From: a virus
DNA: 40,800 nt
Reading direction: 5' to 3' (one strand)
IMG/VR virus record: IMGVR_UViG_3300021076_000643
Coordinates: 1-40,800 of that record
Part shown: piece by piece, positions 6,195-40,800 of the stretch
Layout: each line of letters opens with the position of its first letter
Position numbering within the stretch: the first letter of the stretch is position 1
Translations under genes and position numbers: made by a program
Notes under the pieces: model-generated
What the model saw: only the letters and a program-made list of their open reading frames with translations
The model's database searches: none
What the model was told of the DNA's origin: nothing

Positions 6195-6349
6195 CACCGG
6201 CCACCTCCAAGCACGCGCTCGACCGCGCCGCCAGGCAGAAAGGCCATAGCAATCGTGATGAAGAGATAAATGGCGGCGAGAATCACGGCCGCCTTGAGTA
6301 GACGGTCTGCGGCGGCGAATTCGAGGCTCCAATCCCGATCTGCTTTCAT
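6191..6349 (-). CDS. 52-aa single-span membrane protein
   Basis: A 52-aa product directly follows the MuB-like gene (ATGA overlap). It has a charged N-terminus (MKADRDWSLE), one hydrophobic helix (about residues 18-38, including AAVILAAIYLFITIAMAF) and a short Gly-rich end. It fits the operon spacing exactly, with both ends coupled. Small membrane proteins after A/B occur in several transposable phages; no function is evident. Confidence 0.5.
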   Translation of the reverse strand: MKADRDWSLEFAAADRLLKAAVILAAIYLFITIAMAFLPGGAVERVLGGGRW

Positions 6350-7347
6350 GCGACGGCCTCTGCCCTTTCCGCCGCCGGCGCTTTGGTAGCGGCGGCCGCT
6401 TCCGCGATTGCGTTGCGGGCGTCCTCTATCGCAAAAAACAAATTGCGGGCGCTCACGTACTGGAACGGCTTGCGGTCGCGCACAGCCTCGACCGTGGCGT
6501 CCTTGATGCTCTCGGCGATGTCGTCCGAGTACATCGGCCCCAGTTCGGCCTGGAGAATGCTGGATGCCTCGCCGGTGCTGAGGCCTTTGAGCAGGTGTGT
6601 GCGCCGCAGGCGGCTGCGCCACTGTTCCATGCGCCAATCGCCCAACCGGACTGAGAGATCGTGTGACCCGCCCAGCACGACGCCAAAGTACGGCGGCGTA
6701 TCGAGGAGCTGGCGCAGAATCTCCAGCCCGCTCAGGCCCAGGTGCTGAGCCTCGTCCACGATCAGCAGCGTCCGCTGTGTGCCCAGAAAGAAGCGCAGCT
6801 TGCGGAGGAGCTGGTCGATGGTGCCGCGATTGGGAATGCCGGCCTCGGTGCAGCACTCAATCAGAAACGACTGCGGGCTGTGCTCGACGCGGGCATAGAC
6901 ATACACCGCTTTTCCCTCGCTGCTACGGTTGATCTCCTGGGCTACGCGGCGAAAGGTGTAAGTTTTCTGCGTTCCCGGCGGCCCGTCAACGAGAAAGGCC
7001 GTTCCCTGGCGCAGCGCGGCCCACATCGAGCGGCGCACCGCGTCATACTCGGCTGTGTCGTAGTGCTTGCCCTGCACAACCGCGCCGTGCTCGATCTCGT
7101 AGCGGTCGATCACGCCTTTGAGGGCGGCGCGCACGGCCAGCGAGTTGTCTTCCGCGGCATGATGGTCGCCATAGTGGCCCGACAAAAAGACGCGCAAAGA
7201 ACTTGGATTGAGGGTGGCCAGATCCGCCAGCTCCCCGAGTGTGAGGCCGGAGTGGAGCACAAAAGCTCGCGTCCGGCGAATCATCTCCGCATCGCTCGGC
7301 AAACCGAGTGACTTGAGATACGGTTTCCGCTTATAGAGAATGGACAC
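6346..7347 (-). CDS. B: MuB-like transposition target-delivery ATPase
   Basis: This 333-aa AAA+ ATPase is the partner of the MuA-type transposase. In Mu it binds target DNA, delivers it to the transpososome and gives target immunity. Visible parts are an N-terminal HTH (about 22-60, LTLGELADLATLNPSSLRV), Walker A GPPGTQKT (122-129), Walker B LLIVDEA (194-200), a sensor region (FGVVLGGSHDL) and a C-terminal helical lid. The length is close to Mu B (312 aa). The GTG at 7347 is chosen because GGAGGAATA precedes it and it overlaps the transposase end by only 17 bases. An ATG at 7419 would add 24 residues but has a weak site. Confidence 0.9.
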   Translation of the reverse strand: MSILYKRKPYLKSLGLPSDAEMIRRTRAFVLHSGLTLGELADLATLNPSSLRVFLSGHYGDHHAAEDNSLAVRAALKGVIDRYEIEHGAVVQGKHYDTAEYDAVRRSMWAALRQGTAFLVDGPPGTQKTYTFRRVAQEINRSSEGKAVYVYARVEHSPQSFLIECCTEAGIPNRGTIDQLLRKLRFFLGTQRTLLIVDEAQHLGLSGLEILRQLLDTPPYFGVVLGGSHDLSVRLGDWRMEQWRSRLRRTHLLKGLSTGEASSILQAELGPMYSDDIAESIKDATVEAVRDRKPFQYVSARNLFFAIEDARNAIAEAAAATKAPAAERAEAVA

Positions 7348-9400
7348 TATTCCTCCGAAGTCGTTCCGCCAAGCGATCGGCTGCCTGGCCCGGTATGAGA
7401 CTGTTTGTTGGTTCTTCATTTCCCGCCTGGAGGTGCGTCGGCTGTGGCCGGTGAACCACCAGGTGGGAGACATCGATGGGGAGGCCGCCGAGTTGAAGCA
7501 TTTGATCGTTTTGCGGGACGTAGCCCGAGCGAAGAACGCGGCGCGAGAGCGCATCGAGCTGGTCGCGTGTTTCGTGGTAGCGGTGTTTGCGCTCGCGCAT
7601 ACTGGCGCCGATGGCAGCTTGTGTCTCCGCGTCCTTGGCCTGGCGCAAGAAGGTCTCCGGCTCCAGATAGGCAAAGACATATCCGTCTTCGTCGATAGCG
7701 GCTATGCGGTCCGTTTCCAGCGGATCGAAGGCCACTGTGACGGTCTGGCCGGTGCGGTTATGCAGCTCGCGGCCGCTCTCCGGGTCCGCCGCGACGTAGC
7801 GGCGATTGAGCAGCTCGATGGAGCACTCGCGGACCATGCGCGTGGTGCGCTCGGTCAGCAGGCAGGCGAGCACGGCAGGTTCGGGAGCGGGCGGCTGCTT
7901 GGTCCAGCGGTGTTGCTCGAAAGCCTCGTTGGGCGTCAAGCCTTCCATGCCGGGAACATCCTTAACGCGCAAGTGATACTCCTGCTCGATCCAGAGCACG
8001 GCGGCGCGGATGAACTCGCTGGCCAAGGGAAGATCGGATTCGTCCGCGCGGCCCTGTGCCAGTAGCTTGTGGTGGCGCGCTAACGCGGCGTGGCAACGGT
8101 CAGGGCGCTGCTCGGGAGTGGGGCCGGTGTAAGTCTTCCAGCGGCGATCAAAGCGCTGGTGCATGGTGTTATTGAATCGCTCGATCAGCTTGCTCTGCGG
8201 GTGGAACTTGATGCAGTAGTCAACCGAGATGCCCAGGCGCGCCAGCACTCCCATAGCCTCGGGCGGAATCTCCGCAACGTTCCACGCGGAACTGTGCGCG
8301 CCCTTGCCGACTTTCTGATAATCCTTGCCGTTGTCGGTGTAGAGCGTGCGCGGCGGTCCGAAGTTCTGAATGGAATGGCGCAGGGTGGTGACGATGGAGC
8401 GCGATGAGCCTGCCTGCGACCAGGCGTAGCCGGTAACCTTGCGGCTGCGCATATCGATCAGCCCGGTAAAGTCCAGGCGCATGTGCTGGCGGTCCTTGTC
8501 GTCGAAGAGGTCATTTTGAACAAGTACGTCGTGGTGAGCGTGATCCGAAACGAGGATTTCGCCGGCTTCGAAGTCTGTGTAGCCACGCCGGATGTAGGGA
8601 GCGAAGATTTCGTCGTATTCGCGCCGGCCTTTCAAGGCCAGCGTGGTCACTGCACCGGGCAGGTTTTCGAGAAAGCTGCGGATGGTCTCGTAGCTGGGCG
8701 GCTCGATTTGCATCTGCTTGGCGCGGCAGTCAACGATCTCCCACGCCATGCGCTTGTTCAGGTGCTCGTTGAGGTAGGCGTAAGTGGCCAGGTCAGCCAG
8801 CTCGGCGTGCTGCTCGCTCTGCGCTGACCAGCGCGAGACGCCCTTGTCGCGGCGCGGCTGATCGGCCAGGGCCGCAAAGCCACCAGCGCGGAAGCGCGCC
8901 AGCCAGAGCTTGAGCGTGCGCTCGGAGACATTGCGGGTCTGTGCGATGTATTGAATCAGGGTTGTTTGCGAGGTGACGGGGCGGCCATCGGCGAGGCGGA
9001 AGGCGGAGAAGCGTTGCGGGTCGGATGCATACTCCAGAACCATCTGGAGGATCTCCAGCCGTTGCTCGGCTTGAGCCTGGGCTTCTTCACTGGGCAGAGC
9101 GATGCGCAGCGTGGCGGCCGGAGCCGGGGCAACATCCGCGAAGAGAGGCCCTTGGATGCTGGAGGTGTGGGCGCGATTGAACTTTGCGCGGATTGCGGCG
9201 GGGAAAGACGCGGCGAGGTAGAGCTTTCCGGCGCGGCCGTTGGCGGTCTTTGTTTCCGACTCGCGTGAGATGATCTCGCCGTTCTTCGCCTTCTCGCGCA
9301 GCCAGCGATCGGTCCAGCCTGTCAGAGCGACGGCTTCTTCGGCGGTGAGCCAATGTTCTTGCGGCGGGGCGATCAAGCAGAGTTGCGGTTGTGCGCTCAT
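7331..9400 (-). CDS. A: MuA-like DDE transposase
   Basis: This 689-aa transposase pairs phage ends and joins them to target DNA for integration and replicative transposition (Mu A is 663 aa). An N-terminal winged HTH (about 15-75, TAEEAVALTGWTDRWLREK) would bind the internal enhancer or operators. Residues 115-245 form the end-binding HTH domains. The catalytic core has D286 (VSDHAHHD), D356 (LYTDNGKDY) and E407 (SKLIERFNN), matching the Mu D269/D336/E392 triad in order and rough spacing. A C-terminal beta-barrel (about 525-585) precedes the tail, which in Mu contacts B. GAGGTGACAGC precedes the ATG. The end overlaps the MuB start, so A and B are coupled. Confidence 0.95.
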   Translation of the reverse strand: MSAQPQLCLIAPPQEHWLTAEEAVALTGWTDRWLREKAKNGEIISRESETKTANGRAGKLYLAASFPAAIRAKFNRAHTSSIQGPLFADVAPAPAATLRIALPSEEAQAQAEQRLEILQMVLEYASDPQRFSAFRLADGRPVTSQTTLIQYIAQTRNVSERTLKLWLARFRAGGFAALADQPRRDKGVSRWSAQSEQHAELADLATYAYLNEHLNKRMAWEIVDCRAKQMQIEPPSYETIRSFLENLPGAVTTLALKGRREYDEIFAPYIRRGYTDFEAGEILVSDHAHHDVLVQNDLFDDKDRQHMRLDFTGLIDMRSRKVTGYAWSQAGSSRSIVTTLRHSIQNFGPPRTLYTDNGKDYQKVGKGAHSSAWNVAEIPPEAMGVLARLGISVDYCIKFHPQSKLIERFNNTMHQRFDRRWKTYTGPTPEQRPDRCHAALARHHKLLAQGRADESDLPLASEFIRAAVLWIEQEYHLRVKDVPGMEGLTPNEAFEQHRWTKQPPAPEPAVLACLLTERTTRMVRECSIELLNRRYVAADPESGRELHNRTGQTVTVAFDPLETDRIAAIDEDGYVFAYLEPETFLRQAKDAETQAAIGASMRERKHRYHETRDQLDALSRRVLRSGYVPQNDQMLQLGGLPIDVSHLVVHRPQPTHLQAGNEEPTNSLIPGQAADRLAERLRRNSVHSL

Positions 9401-33117: not shown

Positions 33118-33827
33118 TTGACCTCGCTCCTCCTTTACTCGCCACTGGCGGCGCCCGCACAGGCATAGCGCCCGTCAACCTGCTCGACGTGTGCGACATC
33201 AACGGGAATCTCTACTACTGGGCTGATCGGAAGATCCTCGCGCCGAATGCGATCACCGCAGCTCCACCGCTGCCCGATTATGGTGGAACGCTTTCAACCT
33301 GGACGCCGCCGGCGTCAGTGCTCACTCAATATCAGCCTTGGCTGCTGGGTGTTCCGCAGATCAGCTTCCATCGTTCGCTGGTGACAGACACCGGCGCTTT
33401 CGTGCTGCAGAATCTCAGCGGCGACACACTCAGCCGCGACTTCGAGCGCATCGCCCGCAGCAGCGCATTGGAGGGCGCGTTTTTCATTTATCGCTGCTGG
33501 CAGCCCGACGCGGCTGCCGCGTGGATCGAGGTGCATGGCACGCTCAGCATCGATGGCGCGGATACAGAGACGGGAAAGCTGAAAGGCAGCCAACTGCTGA
33601 ATCCATCGCAGGACGACACGCCACTTGAAATCTATTCGGAGACCTGCCAACTCCAGTGGGGCGGCGTCCGCTGTGGCGCGCAAGGATCGACCGAGTGCAG
33701 CTATAGCTATCAGAGCTGCCAGATGCTCTCGCGCATCATGTGCGTGATGAATAACTACGAGACCAACTTCGGCGAGACGGGCGCGAACATAGCGCTGAAC
33801 GTGACCAATCGGAGGCGCACGATCTAA
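33114..33827 (+). CDS. Tail-tip protein with lambda gpL-like cysteine motif
   Basis: This 237-aa protein overlaps the previous gene by four bases. Residues 75-165 are beta-rich (QISFHRSLVTDTGAFVLQNL) as in DUF2163/minor-tail L families. Near the end C178-x8-C187 and C195-x6-C202 reproduce the spacing of the two cysteine pairs that hold the [4Fe-4S] cluster in lambda gpL (C173/C182 and C205/C212), with a shorter gap between pairs. It is thus a likely iron-sulphur tip protein linking the distal ring to the hub. The cluster itself is inference. Confidence 0.65.
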   Translation: MIDLAPPLLATGGARTGIAPVNLLDVCDINGNLYYWADRKILAPNAITAAPPLPDYGGTLSTWTPPASVLTQYQPWLLGVPQISFHRSLVTDTGAFVLQNLSGDTLSRDFERIARSSALEGAFFIYRCWQPDAAAAWIEVHGTLSIDGADTETGKLKGSQLLNPSQDDTPLEIYSETCQLQWGGVRCGAQGSTECSYSYQSCQMLSRIMCVMNNYETNFGETGANIALNVTNRRRTI

Positions 33828-33864
33828 ACCACCCCAGCGAGCAGAGATCGCTCGCCGGGGCCCC
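33828..33864 (+). repeat. Dispersed hairpin repeat, copy 2
   Basis: It begins right after the TAA of the tip gene and matches copy 1 (28553-28589). CCCC-A-GCGAGC, a seven-base loop, GCTCGC-C-GGGG form a stem of ten pairs with one mismatch (33832-33860). It ends 11 bases before the hub ATG, where an A-run replaces a normal Shine-Dalgarno, so it occupies the leader of the hub gene. Confidence 0.6.
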
Positions 33865-33875
33865 CGAAAAAAACT

Positions 33876-36800
33876 ATGGCGAACTCATCCACAACCGCGA
33901 CCAGCTCAGCCAGCGAGACCACTGGGACTCCGATTCCACTGACCTATGGCTATGCCTGGGTCACGGGGAAGCGCCATGCATACTACATGCTGCAGAACAC
34001 CGGCGATTCGGTCAACCTGTACACGCGCCTCGGAATCTGGCTGCTGGGCCATGGCGAGTGGGACGGAGCTATTTCGCTCTGGATCAACGATCGGCTCGTC
34101 TGGATGGGCGGCGACGCGCTCTCAACCAGCCAGATCCGCACCTACGGCTTCACCTGGCTGAAAGCGCTCGACAATCCCGAGGGCTTCGTCTTCAACTTCC
34201 ACAGCGGCTGCGATACGCCGCTCAATGCTTCGCTTACGCCGTCTTCTACCGGTCCGGATCAGAACGTGGATGTGCTGTGGCCGCTCTTTCCGCCCGCTAT
34301 CCAGCCGCTAGCCTTCTCGCGCATCGCCTACTATTCGCTGATGCGCAAGCAGCCCATCGTCAACCAGACGAGCAACAACGGCAACGATCCAACGCAGTGG
34401 ACAGACATCGCACCGATCGGTCTCTGGCGCGCCCTGAAATGCCGCCTCTTCGACGACGAAGGAAACCAGACCGGCTACGCCTTCACGACGAACCCCGCCT
34501 GGCATTTTGTGGATGTGCTGCTGCGCCGCAAGCTCATGCCCGATTACGGCCTCACGCTCGATGCCGGTCCTGATGCGCTCTCCGCCGCCGTGAAAAACCG
34601 TTTTGACTGGGGTTCTATCTATCAGGCCGCGCAATATTATGACGAGTTCCTGGCCAACGGACGGCCTCGCTTCTCGGGCAACTATTCCTTCAGCTCGCAG
34701 ACCACGCTGCAGGCGTGCCTCGAACAGATCCTGCTGTGCTGCCGGAGCTTTTCTTCTGAGTATGCGGGGAAGATCTCGCTCAACTGCGATATGCCCCGGC
34801 CGAGCGTCTTCACCTTCAGCCGCGCAAACATTCTGCCCGGTTCGTGGGATGCGAGCGGTCAGACGCTGCACAAGAGCGCCAACCGCTACATCGCGAAGTT
34901 CCGCGAACTGCTGGTGCCCCTGTGCAGCTACATCGAATCGATCACTATCGCTGGAGATGGCCGCCCAGAGGTGACCACCAAAGCGCCGCATCCTTTTGAA
35001 GCCGACGACTGGATCGCCATCGGTGGAACGGACACAACCTACGACGGACAATGGGAGGTTTACAGCGTTCCGGATGTCATCAACGAAGGCACAGCGCAAG
35101 AGATCGATCCGACGACATTCGAGCTGGTGCCCAAGGGATCGAATTATCCGAAGAACGTTGGCGCGGTGGGCGGCTGTGGGCTGCTCTATTCGCGTTTCAA
35201 AGAGCGTTCGCCGGAGTTCTGGCACAAGACCAATATGCTGGCGCGCGGCGCGGTGGGCTTGGGCATTCCGCGCCAGCGCAACAAAGTGAAACAGAGTCTC
35301 GATTTCGCCACGATGACATGGGATCAGGCCAGCCGCCTCACCACGTATGAACGTGACCGGCTGCTGGGCATCGACCAGACTCCTTACGTCACGCCGCCCT
35401 GCGCCAAGCTGCGCACGTCGATGTTTGCCAAAGACATCTACGGCAACCTGGCCTGCGCCGTCCGGCCCGGCGATCACGTTACCGTTGACCCGACGCTGGA
35501 TTATCAATACGCCGGCGAATATGAGGTGCTTGAACCGCTCACCGTCTATCCACCGACAGCGCAGGCTACCGGCTCCGGCGGCTCGATCGCGCTCAAGCCC
35601 GACGAAAACAGCGGTGAGATCGAGTTCCCGCTCGGACCATACAACGAAGCAGTCATGTACGATACCAGCGATCCGCTGCAGGCAGGCTGGCCTTCAGTGC
35701 CGGGCAGCGATCCGGGCAACGACAGCAACTACACCAGCATTCCGCTGGCGAATGGCGGCCAGTTCGTCTTCTTCAGCGGGCAGCTCCCCAGCGGCCAGGC
35801 GTTTCAATTACCAGCATCGGGCTTTAGCCCCGCCAACCTTCTCGCCTGGGCATCCGCCGCCGGCGCAGATATAGCCGAGGGGCTGAATGGCACAACAATC
35901 TCTGGCGGACATTCCGCCTCGGCTATTGTTTTGTGCCAGGCAGATACGACGCGACTTCTAACCTTGATTTACAGAGACTGGGAGGGATTAGAGTGGCTCG
36001 GCGATGTGAACTATGCCGCGCTGGCGTGGCTCAGCCCGGATGTGCCCTTCACTAGCAATGGAATCACCTGGCTCGAACTCACGCTGCCCGGCGGTGAAAT
36101 CATCCTCTTCGGCCAAGGCGTTCTTGCCAATGGAGCAACTATCGAACTGCCCGCGGGTTTCACAGCCGCGCAGTGCTTCGCAGTCGCAAACATGCACGAC
36201 GGGCCGACCAGCGGCAATAACGTGGCGCACCTGATGGGAGCCTACGTCGACGCCGGCATGGTGGTGCATTACGACGTTACCGACGGCTCGGGAAATCACT
36301 GGCACGGCAACGCTTCGATTCTCGTCTTTGCCTGGAAGAACAATATGGGCACCGTCACCAAGCAAACGCTCGGCGGTGGGGTCTGGATTGCAATACCGCT
36401 GACCGATGGGACGACCTTCGGCGCCGGGTGCGCACTGAACATGGCAAATGGGGCAACCTTTGAGCTGCCAGCGGCAGCGGGCGACGGTTCGACGCTGGAA
36501 GTGAATATCGGTTCGCATAACGGCTTGCCCGAAAATGGCTCGAATCATGCGCAGGGTGTGGGCGCGTGCTATCTCGATGCTGACAACATCGTCCACATTT
36601 ACTTTCAGGATGGCTCCGGCGATCAATGGCCCGGTACTGCCGATGTCTTCGGCATCTACACCACGCCCGGCTCGGCAGCGCCCACGCTGGTTCGAGTTAC
36701 ACCCGCATCGGCCACCATCGCCGCTGGCACGACATTGCAGTTCTCGGCCACAGTTACGGGCAACGCGAATCCCAACGTGGTCTGGAGCGTGGACGGCATC

Positions 36801-37040
36801 GCGGGCGGCAACGTGACCGTGGGCACGATTAGCGCGACCGGAAACTACGCGCCCAACATCGCGGGATCGCATACCATCACCGCGACCAGCTTGGCTGACA
36901 CGGCAGCTAAAGGCTCGGCGGCTGTGACGGTCTTTGGCGCGCCGTCGTCGAGTTTGCCGCCCGGCGAAGCAATTTTGACTGACGACAGCGGCCACTACAT
37001 TTACCTGAACGGCGATGTGATCTACATCGCGGAGGACTGA
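33876..37040 (+). CDS. Tail hub / host-recognition protein with repeated domains and an Ig-like domain
   Basis: This 1054-aa protein has residues 1-580 resembling large tail hub proteins (TPIPLTYGYAWVTGKRHAYY, FHFVD-like FVDVLLRRKLMPDYGLTL, and SFSSQTTLQACLEQILLCCR), as in phage TipJ/J-like proteins. From about 620 to 928 three copies of a roughly 95-residue beta domain follow, marked by a strand with L..G..., then LPAGF/LPASGF, a central SGGH/SGNN/NGSNHA turn, and DGSGxxWxG. A BIG2-like Ig domain (about 935-1020; ITATSLADTAAKGSAAVTV) and a short tail complete it. The repeats probably bind surface sugar or protein. No usual ribosome site precedes the ATG. Confidence 0.7.
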   Translation: MANSSTTATSSASETTGTPIPLTYGYAWVTGKRHAYYMLQNTGDSVNLYTRLGIWLLGHGEWDGAISLWINDRLVWMGGDALSTSQIRTYGFTWLKALDNPEGFVFNFHSGCDTPLNASLTPSSTGPDQNVDVLWPLFPPAIQPLAFSRIAYYSLMRKQPIVNQTSNNGNDPTQWTDIAPIGLWRALKCRLFDDEGNQTGYAFTTNPAWHFVDVLLRRKLMPDYGLTLDAGPDALSAAVKNRFDWGSIYQAAQYYDEFLANGRPRFSGNYSFSSQTTLQACLEQILLCCRSFSSEYAGKISLNCDMPRPSVFTFSRANILPGSWDASGQTLHKSANRYIAKFRELLVPLCSYIESITIAGDGRPEVTTKAPHPFEADDWIAIGGTDTTYDGQWEVYSVPDVINEGTAQEIDPTTFELVPKGSNYPKNVGAVGGCGLLYSRFKERSPEFWHKTNMLARGAVGLGIPRQRNKVKQSLDFATMTWDQASRLTTYERDRLLGIDQTPYVTPPCAKLRTSMFAKDIYGNLACAVRPGDHVTVDPTLDYQYAGEYEVLEPLTVYPPTAQATGSGGSIALKPDENSGEIEFPLGPYNEAVMYDTSDPLQAGWPSVPGSDPGNDSNYTSIPLANGGQFVFFSGQLPSGQAFQLPASGFSPANLLAWASAAGADIAEGLNGTTISGGHSASAIVLCQADTTRLLTLIYRDWEGLEWLGDVNYAALAWLSPDVPFTSNGITWLELTLPGGEIILFGQGVLANGATIELPAGFTAAQCFAVANMHDGPTSGNNVAHLMGAYVDAGMVVHYDVTDGSGNHWHGNASILVFAWKNNMGTVTKQTLGGGVWIAIPLTDGTTFGAGCALNMANGATFELPAAAGDGSTLEVNIGSHNGLPENGSNHAQGVGACYLDADNIVHIYFQDGSGDQWPGTADVFGIYTTPGSAAPTLVRVTPASATIAAGTTLQFSATVTGNANPNVVWSVDGIAGGNVTVGTISATGNYAPNIAGSHTITATSLADTAAKGSAAVTVFGAPSSSLPPGEAILTDDSGHYIYLNGDVIYIAED

Positions 37041-37417
37041 TGGCGACACCGACGATTCCTCTTTCGAGCGTCCTCATGGCGGGTCTTTATGCCGCGATCC
37101 CCGCTGCCGGCATGGCGGGGCGCGTCTACTTTGCGACGGACACCAACGCAACCTGGTACGACAACGGCGTGGCCTGGGTGAATGTGACGCCCGCGCCAGC
37201 CGCGCCGCTTTCGGTGACATCCGTCGCGCTCGCGCCCTCCGCGCCCGGCAATTTTACCGTGCCTCACGGACTCAGCGCAGCGCCGTCGGCCGTCACAATC
37301 TCGATGACTTCGTTAGGCCAGATCTGCCTGCAGTCGTCTCTCTCGTTCGACGCCGTCAATCTCTACCTGATTGCGTCGGACGCGGGCGTCACCGGCAAAG
37401 CAATTTTGTTCCATTAA
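37040..37417 (+). CDS. Small tail-fibre-associated protein
   Basis: This 125-aa protein is coupled to the hub gene by TGATG. It starts PTIPLSSVLMAGLYAAIPAA, then GRVYFATDTNATWYDNGVAW, the short pattern of many phage fibre proteins that describe an attachment strand. Its beta-rich end is GLSAAPSAVTISMTSLGQIC. It may be a fibre connector or tip. The family is not firmly recognised. Confidence 0.5.
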   Translation: MATPTIPLSSVLMAGLYAAIPAAGMAGRVYFATDTNATWYDNGVAWVNVTPAPAAPLSVTSVALAPSAPGNFTVPHGLSAAPSAVTISMTSLGQICLQSSLSFDAVNLYLIASDAGVTGKAILFH

Positions 37418-37432
37418 TCATGGAGGTTTGAT

Positions 37433-40339
37433 ATGAAGTTTTTACGTTGCGTTTTTCTCTCTCTGGCTGCAGCTCTGCTCTTCGCGGACGTGACTGCCTG
37501 GTCTCAAAGCGTCGAGTATCTGCGGCCCACAGCGGACAGCTTTTACAATGCAGCCCCTTGTAATGCCGGAACTTTCATAGATGACAGCCCGATCAGCGGC
37601 GTGTATAGCGGAAAGAGTGGAGCGGGACCAACGGGCACCGCTAATTTGTTAGCCGGAGTTTATGGCTCCAAGCAGTATTTCAGCGGAGAGGTCTACACAG
37701 CCTTTCAATCTGCCACAAAGACCTACACAGCATTAACTATCAACATTTCCGCCGCCACTTCGCATACCGGCGCTGCGGGAGTGTCGAGTGCGTACTACTC
37801 GACGAACAGCGGCTCATCATGGACGGCGCTTTATAGCACATCGGGGACAACATCACAGACAACCTACTCAGCTAGCATCACCGGAACGGCAATGAGCGGT
37901 GTCGAAGTGGTGATCTGCGCGTCAAGCGGTACAAGCGCGTCAACGGTCAACAACAACGTCTATGACATCTGGACGGCAGGCACTTATGGAGCACTCATCT
38001 CCCAGGGAATCACTTTCACCGCCCCGACGACGCCAGTAAACTATGGAGTCGCGCCGATCACTCTCGTAGCGACGGGGGGCGCGTCGGGCAATCCGGTGAC
38101 CTTCAGCGTGCTCTCCGGACCCGGCACGGTCAGCGGAAATATCCTGACGGTCACGGGCGTGGGAACTATCACGGTCGCCGCAGACCAGGCGGGCAATAGC
38201 TCTTATTCCGCCGCCGCGGAGGTTACGCAGAGCATTGTCGTCAATCAGGCATCTCAGACCATCGACTTCATCGCGCCGGCCTCGCCTGAGGCTTATGGAG
38301 CTTCGCCTATAGGCTTGTCGGCTACGGCCAGTTCCGGGCTGACTCCTACATTCAGCATCATCTCTGGCCCTGGCTCTGTCTCTGGCAACACGCTGACAAT
38401 GACCGGCCAAGGCACGATTGTGATCGCCGCAAATCAGGCTGGCAACGCTAACTATGCCGCCGCGCCGCAGGTTACGCAGAGCGTCGTAGTTACGCTGCCG
38501 AGTCAGACGATCAGCTTCACTGCGCCATTGACGGAACCTTATGGCACCGCGCCAATCACTCTGACTGCGACGGCAACGTCTGGCCTCGCTGTGAGCTTCA
38601 GTGTCCTCTCCGGGCCTGGCACGCTCTCTGGAAGCACCTTGACCTTCACCGGCTCAGGAACTGTGGTTGTGGCCGCAAATCAGGCGGGGAGCTCCTCTTA
38701 CGCTGCCGCACCACAAGTGACTCAATCCATTACGGTCGCAGCGGCCACGGGCGCCCAGCCCCAGACGCAGCTTGCACCCATCAGTGCTGTTAATGCGAAG
38801 TACGTCCAGGGCGTCGGTCCTGGCTTCTGGCCCACAGCGGGAAGCGGCCTTTCCGTTACTCTGACGGCCGGCACGGCAAACTGTGCTGGCACCATCGAAA
38901 ATTACTCGGCAACCGCGCTCGCCCTGATCGCCTCGACGACTAACTACATCTACCTCAACACGGCAGCGGCCTGCGCGCCGGCAGTGAAAACGACAGCTTT
39001 CACTTCTAGCGATATACCCATCGCCACTATCGTCACCGGCGCATCTTCGATCACCAGCATCCAGGATGACCGGACTATGTTCGGGAATGGAGGAATTGGG
39101 CTGACAGGCCCAGCGGGCACTAATGGCAACACCATCTGGAGCGGAATCAGTGCACCCAGCAGCGGCACCGGAGTCAACGGAGACTTCTATCTGAATATGG
39201 CTAATTCGTGCCTCTATGGCCCGAAGGCGAGCGGCACATGGCCGGGCACATGCATTTCACTTATCGGACCCAGCGGAAGCTCAGGAGCGGCGGGCACGAA
39301 CGGCAACACAATTTGGAACGGCACCAGCGCGCCCAGCAGCGGGACTGGAGTCAACGGAGACTTTTATCTAAATACGGCTAACTCGTGTCTCTACGGCCCG
39401 AAGGGGAGCGGCGCATGGCCGGGCACCTGCACCTCGCTGATTGGTGCAACGGGCGCATCGGGCACAGGCAGCGGTACGGTCAACACATGCGGAACGGCAA
39501 ACTATATTGCCTATTACGCGGCCACCGGCACGACTGTGAGCTGCGAGGCTACGATTCCTAACTCAATGGTCTCTGGACTCGGTTCCGCGGCGCTTGAGCC
39601 AATCTCATACTTTGACCTGGCCGGCGCGGCCGCTGCTGCCATTACGACTGCGGAGGCAGCGATACCCGCAGCATCTTCGATGACACCAGCGATGAACGGA
39701 ACTGGGGCGGCCGGCACATCTAGCGCATACGCCCGCACTGACCACGTTCACCCGACAGATAGCAGCCGCGTATCGACCGGCACCACGGTCAACGGCCACG
39801 CCTTGAGCGCCAATGTGACGATAAGCGCGTCGGACCTGACAACCGGCACGCTGCCTCACGCGCAACTGCCAGCGCTAGTATCCGGCGACATACCCGCCAA
39901 CGCGGCGAACACCACAGGCACGGCGGCGAATATCACCGCCGCCGCTACGTTGCCGTCTGGCACGACTATTAGCGGAGCCACTCTCAACGTCGCGGTTCTC
40001 TCTTTCGGTTACGCTGGAACGCCGCCAGCATCGCAGTATCTCGGCTCCATGTTGCCAACCTCGCTGACTTATTCGGTGGCGTCCGGCTGCACAAACAGCA
40101 AAGGCTTTGGCAGCGCGGCTTCCACCACCACGGACGTGTTCCAGATCAACAAATGCACGGCGGGTGAGACAACCTGCGCCAGCGTCGGCACGGTCACATT
40201 CACCAGTTCGGCGACGGGCGTGTTTGCCTGCTCAAGCGCATTCACCATCACGAGCGGCCAATCGCTCAACATCACGGCTCCGAGCACCGCGGCCACCATC
40301 GTCAACCCGACTTTCAGCATTGAAGCGACGCATAACTAG
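37433..40339 (+). CDS. Exported fibre-like protein with Ig-like and collagen-linked repeats
   Basis: This 968-aa protein has a signal peptide (1-25; CVFLSLAAALLFADVTAWSQ). Residues 27-185 form an N-terminal beta domain whose first 390 coding bases recur in the next gene. Three Ig-like repeats of 82-84 residues follow (190-440; each ends near QAGxxxYxAAxxVTQS). A middle domain and two 59-residue units come next (about 556-674; TGPAGTNGN Gly-rich start, then APSSGTGVNGDFYL and NSCLYGPK). A region with YARTDHVHP (about 762-770), typical of phage fibre knobs, precedes a C-terminal domain. AGGTTTGAT precedes the ATG. A secretion signal on a fibre gene is unusual. It may instead be a cell-surface protein encoded by the prophage. 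Confidence 0.7.
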   Translation: MKFLRCVFLSLAAALLFADVTAWSQSVEYLRPTADSFYNAAPCNAGTFIDDSPISGVYSGKSGAGPTGTANLLAGVYGSKQYFSGEVYTAFQSATKTYTALTINISAATSHTGAAGVSSAYYSTNSGSSWTALYSTSGTTSQTTYSASITGTAMSGVEVVICASSGTSASTVNNNVYDIWTAGTYGALISQGITFTAPTTPVNYGVAPITLVATGGASGNPVTFSVLSGPGTVSGNILTVTGVGTITVAADQAGNSSYSAAAEVTQSIVVNQASQTIDFIAPASPEAYGASPIGLSATASSGLTPTFSIISGPGSVSGNTLTMTGQGTIVIAANQAGNANYAAAPQVTQSVVVTLPSQTISFTAPLTEPYGTAPITLTATATSGLAVSFSVLSGPGTLSGSTLTFTGSGTVVVAANQAGSSSYAAAPQVTQSITVAAATGAQPQTQLAPISAVNAKYVQGVGPGFWPTAGSGLSVTLTAGTANCAGTIENYSATALALIASTTNYIYLNTAAACAPAVKTTAFTSSDIPIATIVTGASSITSIQDDRTMFGNGGIGLTGPAGTNGNTIWSGISAPSSGTGVNGDFYLNMANSCLYGPKASGTWPGTCISLIGPSGSSGAAGTNGNTIWNGTSAPSSGTGVNGDFYLNTANSCLYGPKGSGAWPGTCTSLIGATGASGTGSGTVNTCGTANYIAYYAATGTTVSCEATIPNSMVSGLGSAALEPISYFDLAGAAAAAITTAEAAIPAASSMTPAMNGTGAAGTSSAYARTDHVHPTDSSRVSTGTTVNGHALSANVTISASDLTTGTLPHAQLPALVSGDIPANAANTTGTAANITAAATLPSGTTISGATLNVAVLSFGYAGTPPASQYLGSMLPTSLTYSVASGCTNSKGFGSAASTTTDVFQINKCTAGETTCASVGTVTFTSSATGVFACSSAFTITSGQSLNITAPSTAATIVNPTFSIEATHN
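37514..37903 (+). repeat. 390-bp direct repeat, copy 1
   Basis: From GAGTATCTGCGG, immediately after the signal peptide of the first fibre-like gene, this block is identical by eye to 40411-40800. The identity starts at the codon for the same Glu in both genes, and the sequences upstream (two different signal peptides) do not match. Confidence 0.9.
38003..38749 (+). repeat. Three tandem Ig-like domain repeats
   Basis: Units begin at 38003, 38255 and 38504 (252, 249 and about 246 bases). Each encodes a strand set starting near Q(T)I.F.AP and containing SGPGT/SVSGN and AANQAG or AADQAG. They are diverged in DNA but clear in protein, so they are old duplications, in contrast with the identical 390-base block. 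Confidence 0.75.
39101..39456 (+). repeat. Two tandem 177-base repeats
   Basis: The coding segment containing GGCAAC at 39125 recurs at 39302 (offset 177 bases, 59 codons) with high similarity over the APSSGTGVNGDFYL and SCLYGPK stretches. Each unit begins with a short Gly-Pro/Gly-X-rich collagen-like piece. The repeats are recent enough to see at DNA level and could change copy number by recombination. Confidence 0.75.
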
Positions 40340-40347
40340 GAGACAGC

Positions 40348-40800
40348 ATGAGAAGGATATTTGCAGCAGTGATTCTGCTCTATGTGGCGTCAGCGTCATG
40401 GGCCTCGACAGAGTATCTGCGGCCCACAGCGGACAGCTTTTACAATGCAGCCCCTTGTAATGCCGGAACTTTCATAGATGACAGCCCGATCAGCGGCGTG
40501 TATAGCGGAAAGAGTGGAGCGGGACCAACGGGCACCGCTAATTTGTTAGCCGGAGTTTATGGCTCCAAGCAGTATTTCAGCGGAGAGGTCTACACAGCCT
40601 TTCAATCTGCCACAAAGACCTACACAGCATTAACTATCAACATTTCCGCCGCCACTTCGCATACCGGCGCTGCGGGAGTGTCGAGTGCGTACTACTCGAC
40701 GAACAGCGGCTCATCATGGACGGCGCTTTATAGCACATCGGGGACAACATCACAGACAACCTACTCAGCTAGCATCACCGGAACGGCAATGAGCGGTGTC
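40348..40800 (+). CDS. Second exported fibre-like protein (runs off window)
   Basis: ATG 40348 has TAGGAGACAGC upstream, overlapping the previous stop. The first 151 codons are open to the window end. The protein has its own signal peptide (RRIFAAVILLYVASASWAS), different from that of the preceding gene. It then repeats the preceding N-terminal beta domain with no base change that I can see (from codon 22 on). The remainder, which should show whether the C-terminus differs, is outside the window. Confidence 0.75.
   Translation, partial: MRRIFAAVILLYVASASWASTEYLRPTADSFYNAAPCNAGTFIDDSPISGVYSGKSGAGPTGTANLLAGVYGSKQYFSGEVYTAFQSATKTYTALTINISAATSHTGAAGVSSAYYSTNSGSSWTALYSTSGTTSQTTYSASITGTAMSGV
40411..40800 (+). 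repeat. 390-bp direct repeat, copy 2
   Basis: Same orientation as copy 1 (37514-37903), 2897 bases apart. It continues to the window edge, so the true length may be greater. It codes for the same N-terminal domain of a second fibre-like gene. Confidence 0.9.

Follow-up and report, generated by a model that had tools for sequence, protein, structure and literature searches.

In the T4-type tail-fibre adhesin gp37, domain duplications alter the host range, and the G segment of phage Mu, together with Gin, constitutes an invertible tail-fibre cassette, with the fibre genes located near the right end of the genome. Temperate phages, furthermore, exchange modules of their fibres and adhesins. The locus described here resembles each of these systems in part. 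As in T4 gp37, a small domain in a phage fibre locus appears to have been duplicated by recombination, leaving direct repeats; however, in T4 the duplication resides within one adhesin tip, whereas here it connects the N-terminal region of a fibre gene with a separate small downstream gene, both starting with a signal peptide. With Mu, the locus shares Mu-like transposase genes and the genome region concerned, but there is no Resolvase-family gene in the record, the repeats are direct instead of inverted, and no alternative tip is seen. As in module exchange among temperate phages, individual fibre domains have been recombined among relatives; what differs is that this genome contains two undiverged copies of a single module. 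No description of this arrangement was found in the literature.

The window analysed is the entire virus record IMGVR_UViG_3300021076_000643, comprising 40800 bases. It is a Mu-like (transposable) phage, the host of which is probably a soil acidobacterium. A Mu A-type transposase (7331–9400, minus strand; phrog_310, E 1.4e-83) and a B-type DNA transposition protein (6346–7680, minus strand; phrog_296, E 4.8e-25) are encoded, while the plus strand carries, in this order, terminase, portal, head protease, major head protein and tail genes, preceded by genes for a CI-like repressor, a DNA adenine methylase and a lysozyme. Upstream of the fibre gene lie a central-tail-fibre J-like gene (33876–37040, plus strand; phrog_31) and a small tail gene that is present in many relatives (37040–37417, plus strand). 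The J-like gene served as the query for finding relatives, which are, in the following, the 30 fetched loci bearing a relative of it.

The window ends within a long direct repeat. Copy 1 (37514–37903) and copy 2 (40411–40800), both on the plus strand and offset by 2897 bp, were found to be identical at 390 of 390 bases when compared within the record, as stated in the preliminary description of this DNA; a chance origin is excluded by this match. The identity opens at codon 28 of the fibre gene (gene 1) and at codon 22 of the downstream gene (gene 2). Towards the left, the edge is abrupt, with no base shared directly upstream of the two copies, and the DNA encoding the two signal peptides, described before as unrelated, is so except for a TGG codon. 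Since the window is the whole record, copy 2 stops at the contig end, and the 390 bp represent the visible part of the repeat, with the right edge beyond view. A simple terminal repeat of a circular contig is rejected, as copy 1 is internal. Elsewhere in the window, no other exact repeat of at least 25 bp is present. The neighbouring duplications are diverged, in agreement with the earlier account: the three Ig-like repeats of gene 1 are 61–64% identical to each other in DNA, and a 177-bp tandem duplication in its collagen-like part (39105–39444) is ~83–85% identical.

Gene 1 (37433–40339, plus strand; 968 aa) is composed of a signal peptide, the repeated block, the three Ig-like repeats (38009–38750), a “QPQTQ...NAKYVQGVGPG” domain common to the fibre genes of Mu-like relatives (38753–39100), the collagen-like stretch, and a C-terminal domain ending in ATHN (39968–40336), all in the plus orientation. 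Neither gene 1 nor gene 2 gave a match in Pfam or PHROGs. The previous designation of two fibre-like genes claims more than the sequence shows, since only the first 151 codons of gene 2 are contained in the window.

How the block is placed in gene 1 becomes evident upon comparison with L004, the closest relative found, whose J-like protein is 88% identical. The DNA of L004 matches the window at 36901–37486, including the start of gene 1 and its signal peptide, and again at 38003–39081; within the segment encoding the signal peptide and the first mature codons (37433–37513, plus strand), the homology thus reaches to ~37486. The intervening stretch (37487–38002, plus strand) is missing from L004, where an additional Ig-like repeat takes its place; it contains the whole block domain and is homologous, up to 37987, to L003, an integrase-carrying phage contig. 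Wherever else among the relatives this fibre gene can be recognised, its signal peptide is immediately succeeded by the “QPQTQ” domain. From these layouts, the N-terminal part of the fibre is a site of module exchange, at which the lineage of the window placed the block. More generally, the block, the Ig repeats, the “QPQTQ” domain and the C-terminal domain are combined differently across relatives. At either end, the block meets its neighbour in frame and at a domain limit, for which reason a chimeric join creating the block of gene 1 is judged unlikely. None of the 30 J-like loci contains the block, with the record of L004 itself ending inside its fibre gene, and no close relative carrying both copies was found in searches that may have withheld near-identical records.

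The homologous domain exceeds the visible repeat, extending over approximately residues 24–185 of gene 1 (~160 aa), and its start, EYLRPTAD, is kept even in distant members. A structure model of low confidence (mean pLDDT 60, pTM 0.64, three sequences) predicts a beta sandwich. In Foldseek, this jelly-roll-like model gave weak matches to CBM4, CBM16 and MAM domains and to phage minor tail proteins, and the resemblance to carbohydrate-binding jelly rolls suggests that the block may be ligand-binding. No match to the block was obtained among PDB sequences, and no relative was recovered from an annotated phage collection (DNA search) or in phage and plasmid protein searches. A search of 396 genomes of the phylum yielded only the source MAG (two copies), besides four weak partial matches. 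Searching viral contigs with the C-terminal domain of gene 1 alone retrieved nothing, and the corresponding search with an alignment of this domain retrieved only a near copy of one of the prophages described below (L034).

Outside the window, the block is encoded as a gene of its own. In L003, the same domain (74% identical) constitutes a stand-alone protein of 193 aa with its own signal peptide, the gene being located directly 3' of a fibre gene. Two prophage regions of one Acidobacteriaceae MAG (L034 and L037) likewise contain a fibre gene followed by a signal-peptide and block gene, at a spacing of 10 bp in L034 and ~300 bp in L037, and the terminal domain of both fibre genes shares 46–47% identity with the C-terminus of gene 1. 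Gene 2 (40348 to the contig end at 40800, plus strand, open) encodes a second signal peptide and the first 130 codons of the block in 151 aa. It begins 8 bp past the ATHN end of gene 1 and, thus, matches the genes of L034 and L037 in its position after an ATHN-type fibre gene, its own signal peptide and its N-terminal block. Based on the synteny in L003, L034 and L037, gene 2 is the expected member of a two-gene unit of fibre and block. It is, therefore, probably a short gene rather than another fibre, judging from the 193-aa homologue. An exact search of IMG/VR with signal peptide 2 gave no match. Between L034 and L037, the C-termini of the fibre genes are 81% identical and the block genes look much less alike in the alignment, which may point to faster change in the block gene than in the neighbouring fibre gene.

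In other relatives, the slot 3' of the fibre gene is occupied by different, unrelated signal-peptide proteins (L008:16414, L010:15634), which gives it the look of an accessory position with variable content. Sec-type signal peptides start both fibre-position genes and block genes (window 37433 and 40348; L004:13477, L008:13575, L010:14397, L011:14052, L014:13586, L019:14196, L034:2649). Such signal peptides are unusual for virion parts, and they may indicate that the products are exported to the surface of the host.

In many relatives, a conserved TATGRAAAATGGAAT followed by GCCACA is present near the right end, shortly after the last tail gene (L006:15756, L011:16657, L023:16282, L024:14344, L028:14368, L029:14586), beyond which the DNA is unlike and probably that of the host; the two elements are likely a set of transposase end sites. 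The TATGRAAAATGGAAT motif has no match in the window at up to 2 mismatches. As the window is without a good match to the right-end motif of the relatives, we infer that the contig probably ends a little before the end of the phage and that gene 2 is probably the last phage gene. In L006, L007 and L021, an exact direct repeat of 160 bp was observed past the last tail gene (L006:14293 and 15469).

Taken as a whole, we consider it probable that a mobile block, normally a separate gene after the fibre gene, has also been copied into the front of gene 1, and that the two copies are identical owing to very recent copying or conversion. The block would be a mobile beta-sandwich domain whose usual form is a small secreted protein encoded immediately 3' of the fibre gene, with gene 2 as this usual downstream gene. 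A copy of the domain would have been inserted in frame into gene 1 between the signal peptide and the Ig repeats, where L004 carries an Ig repeat, and the identity over at least 390 bp would stem from very recent copying or from homogenising gene conversion. This view is built on four observations, namely the repeat itself, the limits of the domain, the syntenic position of gene 2 and the lack of a block in the L004 ortholog; the shortness of gene 2, a divergence of the copies after 37903, the direction of copying, its recency and the ligand-binding role are presumed. Recency is supported by the fourfold sites, 0 of 76 of which differ between the block copies versus 54% of comparable sites between gene 1 and its L004 ortholog; a recent duplication or gene conversion, as previously proposed, is thus the likely origin. 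If the genes diverge after 37903, the restriction of the identity to a core with differing flanks would be the pattern of a recent copy or of a gene-conversion tract.

Block sharing between unrelated phages, namely the integrase phage L003 and the Acidobacteriaceae prophages, implies that the block moves horizontally, and this opens another route to two copies: both could have been acquired independently from one donor lineage, one entering gene 1 and the other becoming gene 2, with no copying within the genome. The residues preceding the block would fit such a history, since W-S-Q-S-V of gene 1 is closer to W-A-Q-S-I of L003 than to W-A-S-T of gene 2. However, 390 identical bases would require two transfers from a near-clonal source in a short time, where a single intragenomic event is simpler, and we regard a double acquisition as improbable.

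Assembly offers the main alternative explanation, according to which both genes hold the domain, but the true block of gene 2 is merely similar to that of gene 1, and the assembler entered the gene 1 block via a stretch common to both, rewrote the block and then stopped. The contig does end within a repeat, which is the usual site of an unresolved break, and the conservation of EYLRPTAD in distant members makes a shared k-mer plausible. Nonetheless, we find such a collapse doubtful: 390 bp is longer than the usual short-read k-mers, and simple wrap-around in a de Bruijn graph would yield only k repeated bases. Whichever assembler was used, the stop at 390 bp would rather fit the edge of a repeat whose exits differ at 37903/37904, and no other fetched locus terminates in a sequence that recurs exactly in its interior. 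The artefact raised in the preliminary description could explain why the identity is exact, but hardly why both genes have the block, each occurrence of which is backed by anatomy—gene 2 by synteny in three contexts and gene 1 by in-frame junctions at domain limits.

Long exact direct repeats inside genes of a fibre locus, in frame in both, could in principle allow the recombination system of the host to swap or delete C-terminal parts of the fibre and, thereby, to alter receptor specificity, which was the cassette system suggested at the outset. The comparison does not support it, and we consider it very unlikely. A pair of such blocks is present in 0 of 30 relatives, none of which contains an exact repeat of at least 25 bp within its fibre gene. 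Recombination between the copies would remove 2897 bp, taking out the Ig repeats and all of the distal fibre, and the predicted product is a block protein secreted by means of signal peptide 1; hence, the fibre would be deleted and no tip swapped. For an exchange of tips, gene 2 would need to continue into a second tip, against which the syntenic genes, such as the short stand-alone gene of L003, argue. Furthermore, the record gave no match to the serine recombinase family (Resolvase, PF00239), with control genomes positive, or to reverse transcriptase (PF00078), and of the two weak inverted pairs within 33800–40800, neither flanks the block or the fibre tip. An invertible cassette of the Gin/G-segment type was rejected on the grounds of the missing PF00239 match and flanking inverted sites, and a diversity-generating retroelement on those of the missing PF00078 match and an identical repeat without adenine-specific changes. 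The event, thus, looks like ordinary phage domain mobility, with a single recent copying of the domain, and not like a switching system.

The probable recent copying of a mobile block between the fibre gene and its neighbour adds a fresh case of domain traffic at the fibre locus of uncultured Mu-like phages, probably of Acidobacteria, and the unnamed block domain is now tied to a conserved two-gene unit consisting of a fibre and a small secreted block protein. It is conceivable, albeit highly improbable in our estimation, that recurrent gene conversion preserves the identity of the domain shared by the fibre and its secreted partner, whereby both would always show the same binding face; the secreted copy could then, for example, serve as a fibre-matched decoy or blocker. 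If the copies are truly identical in the reads, copying between the fibre gene and its neighbour would be in progress.
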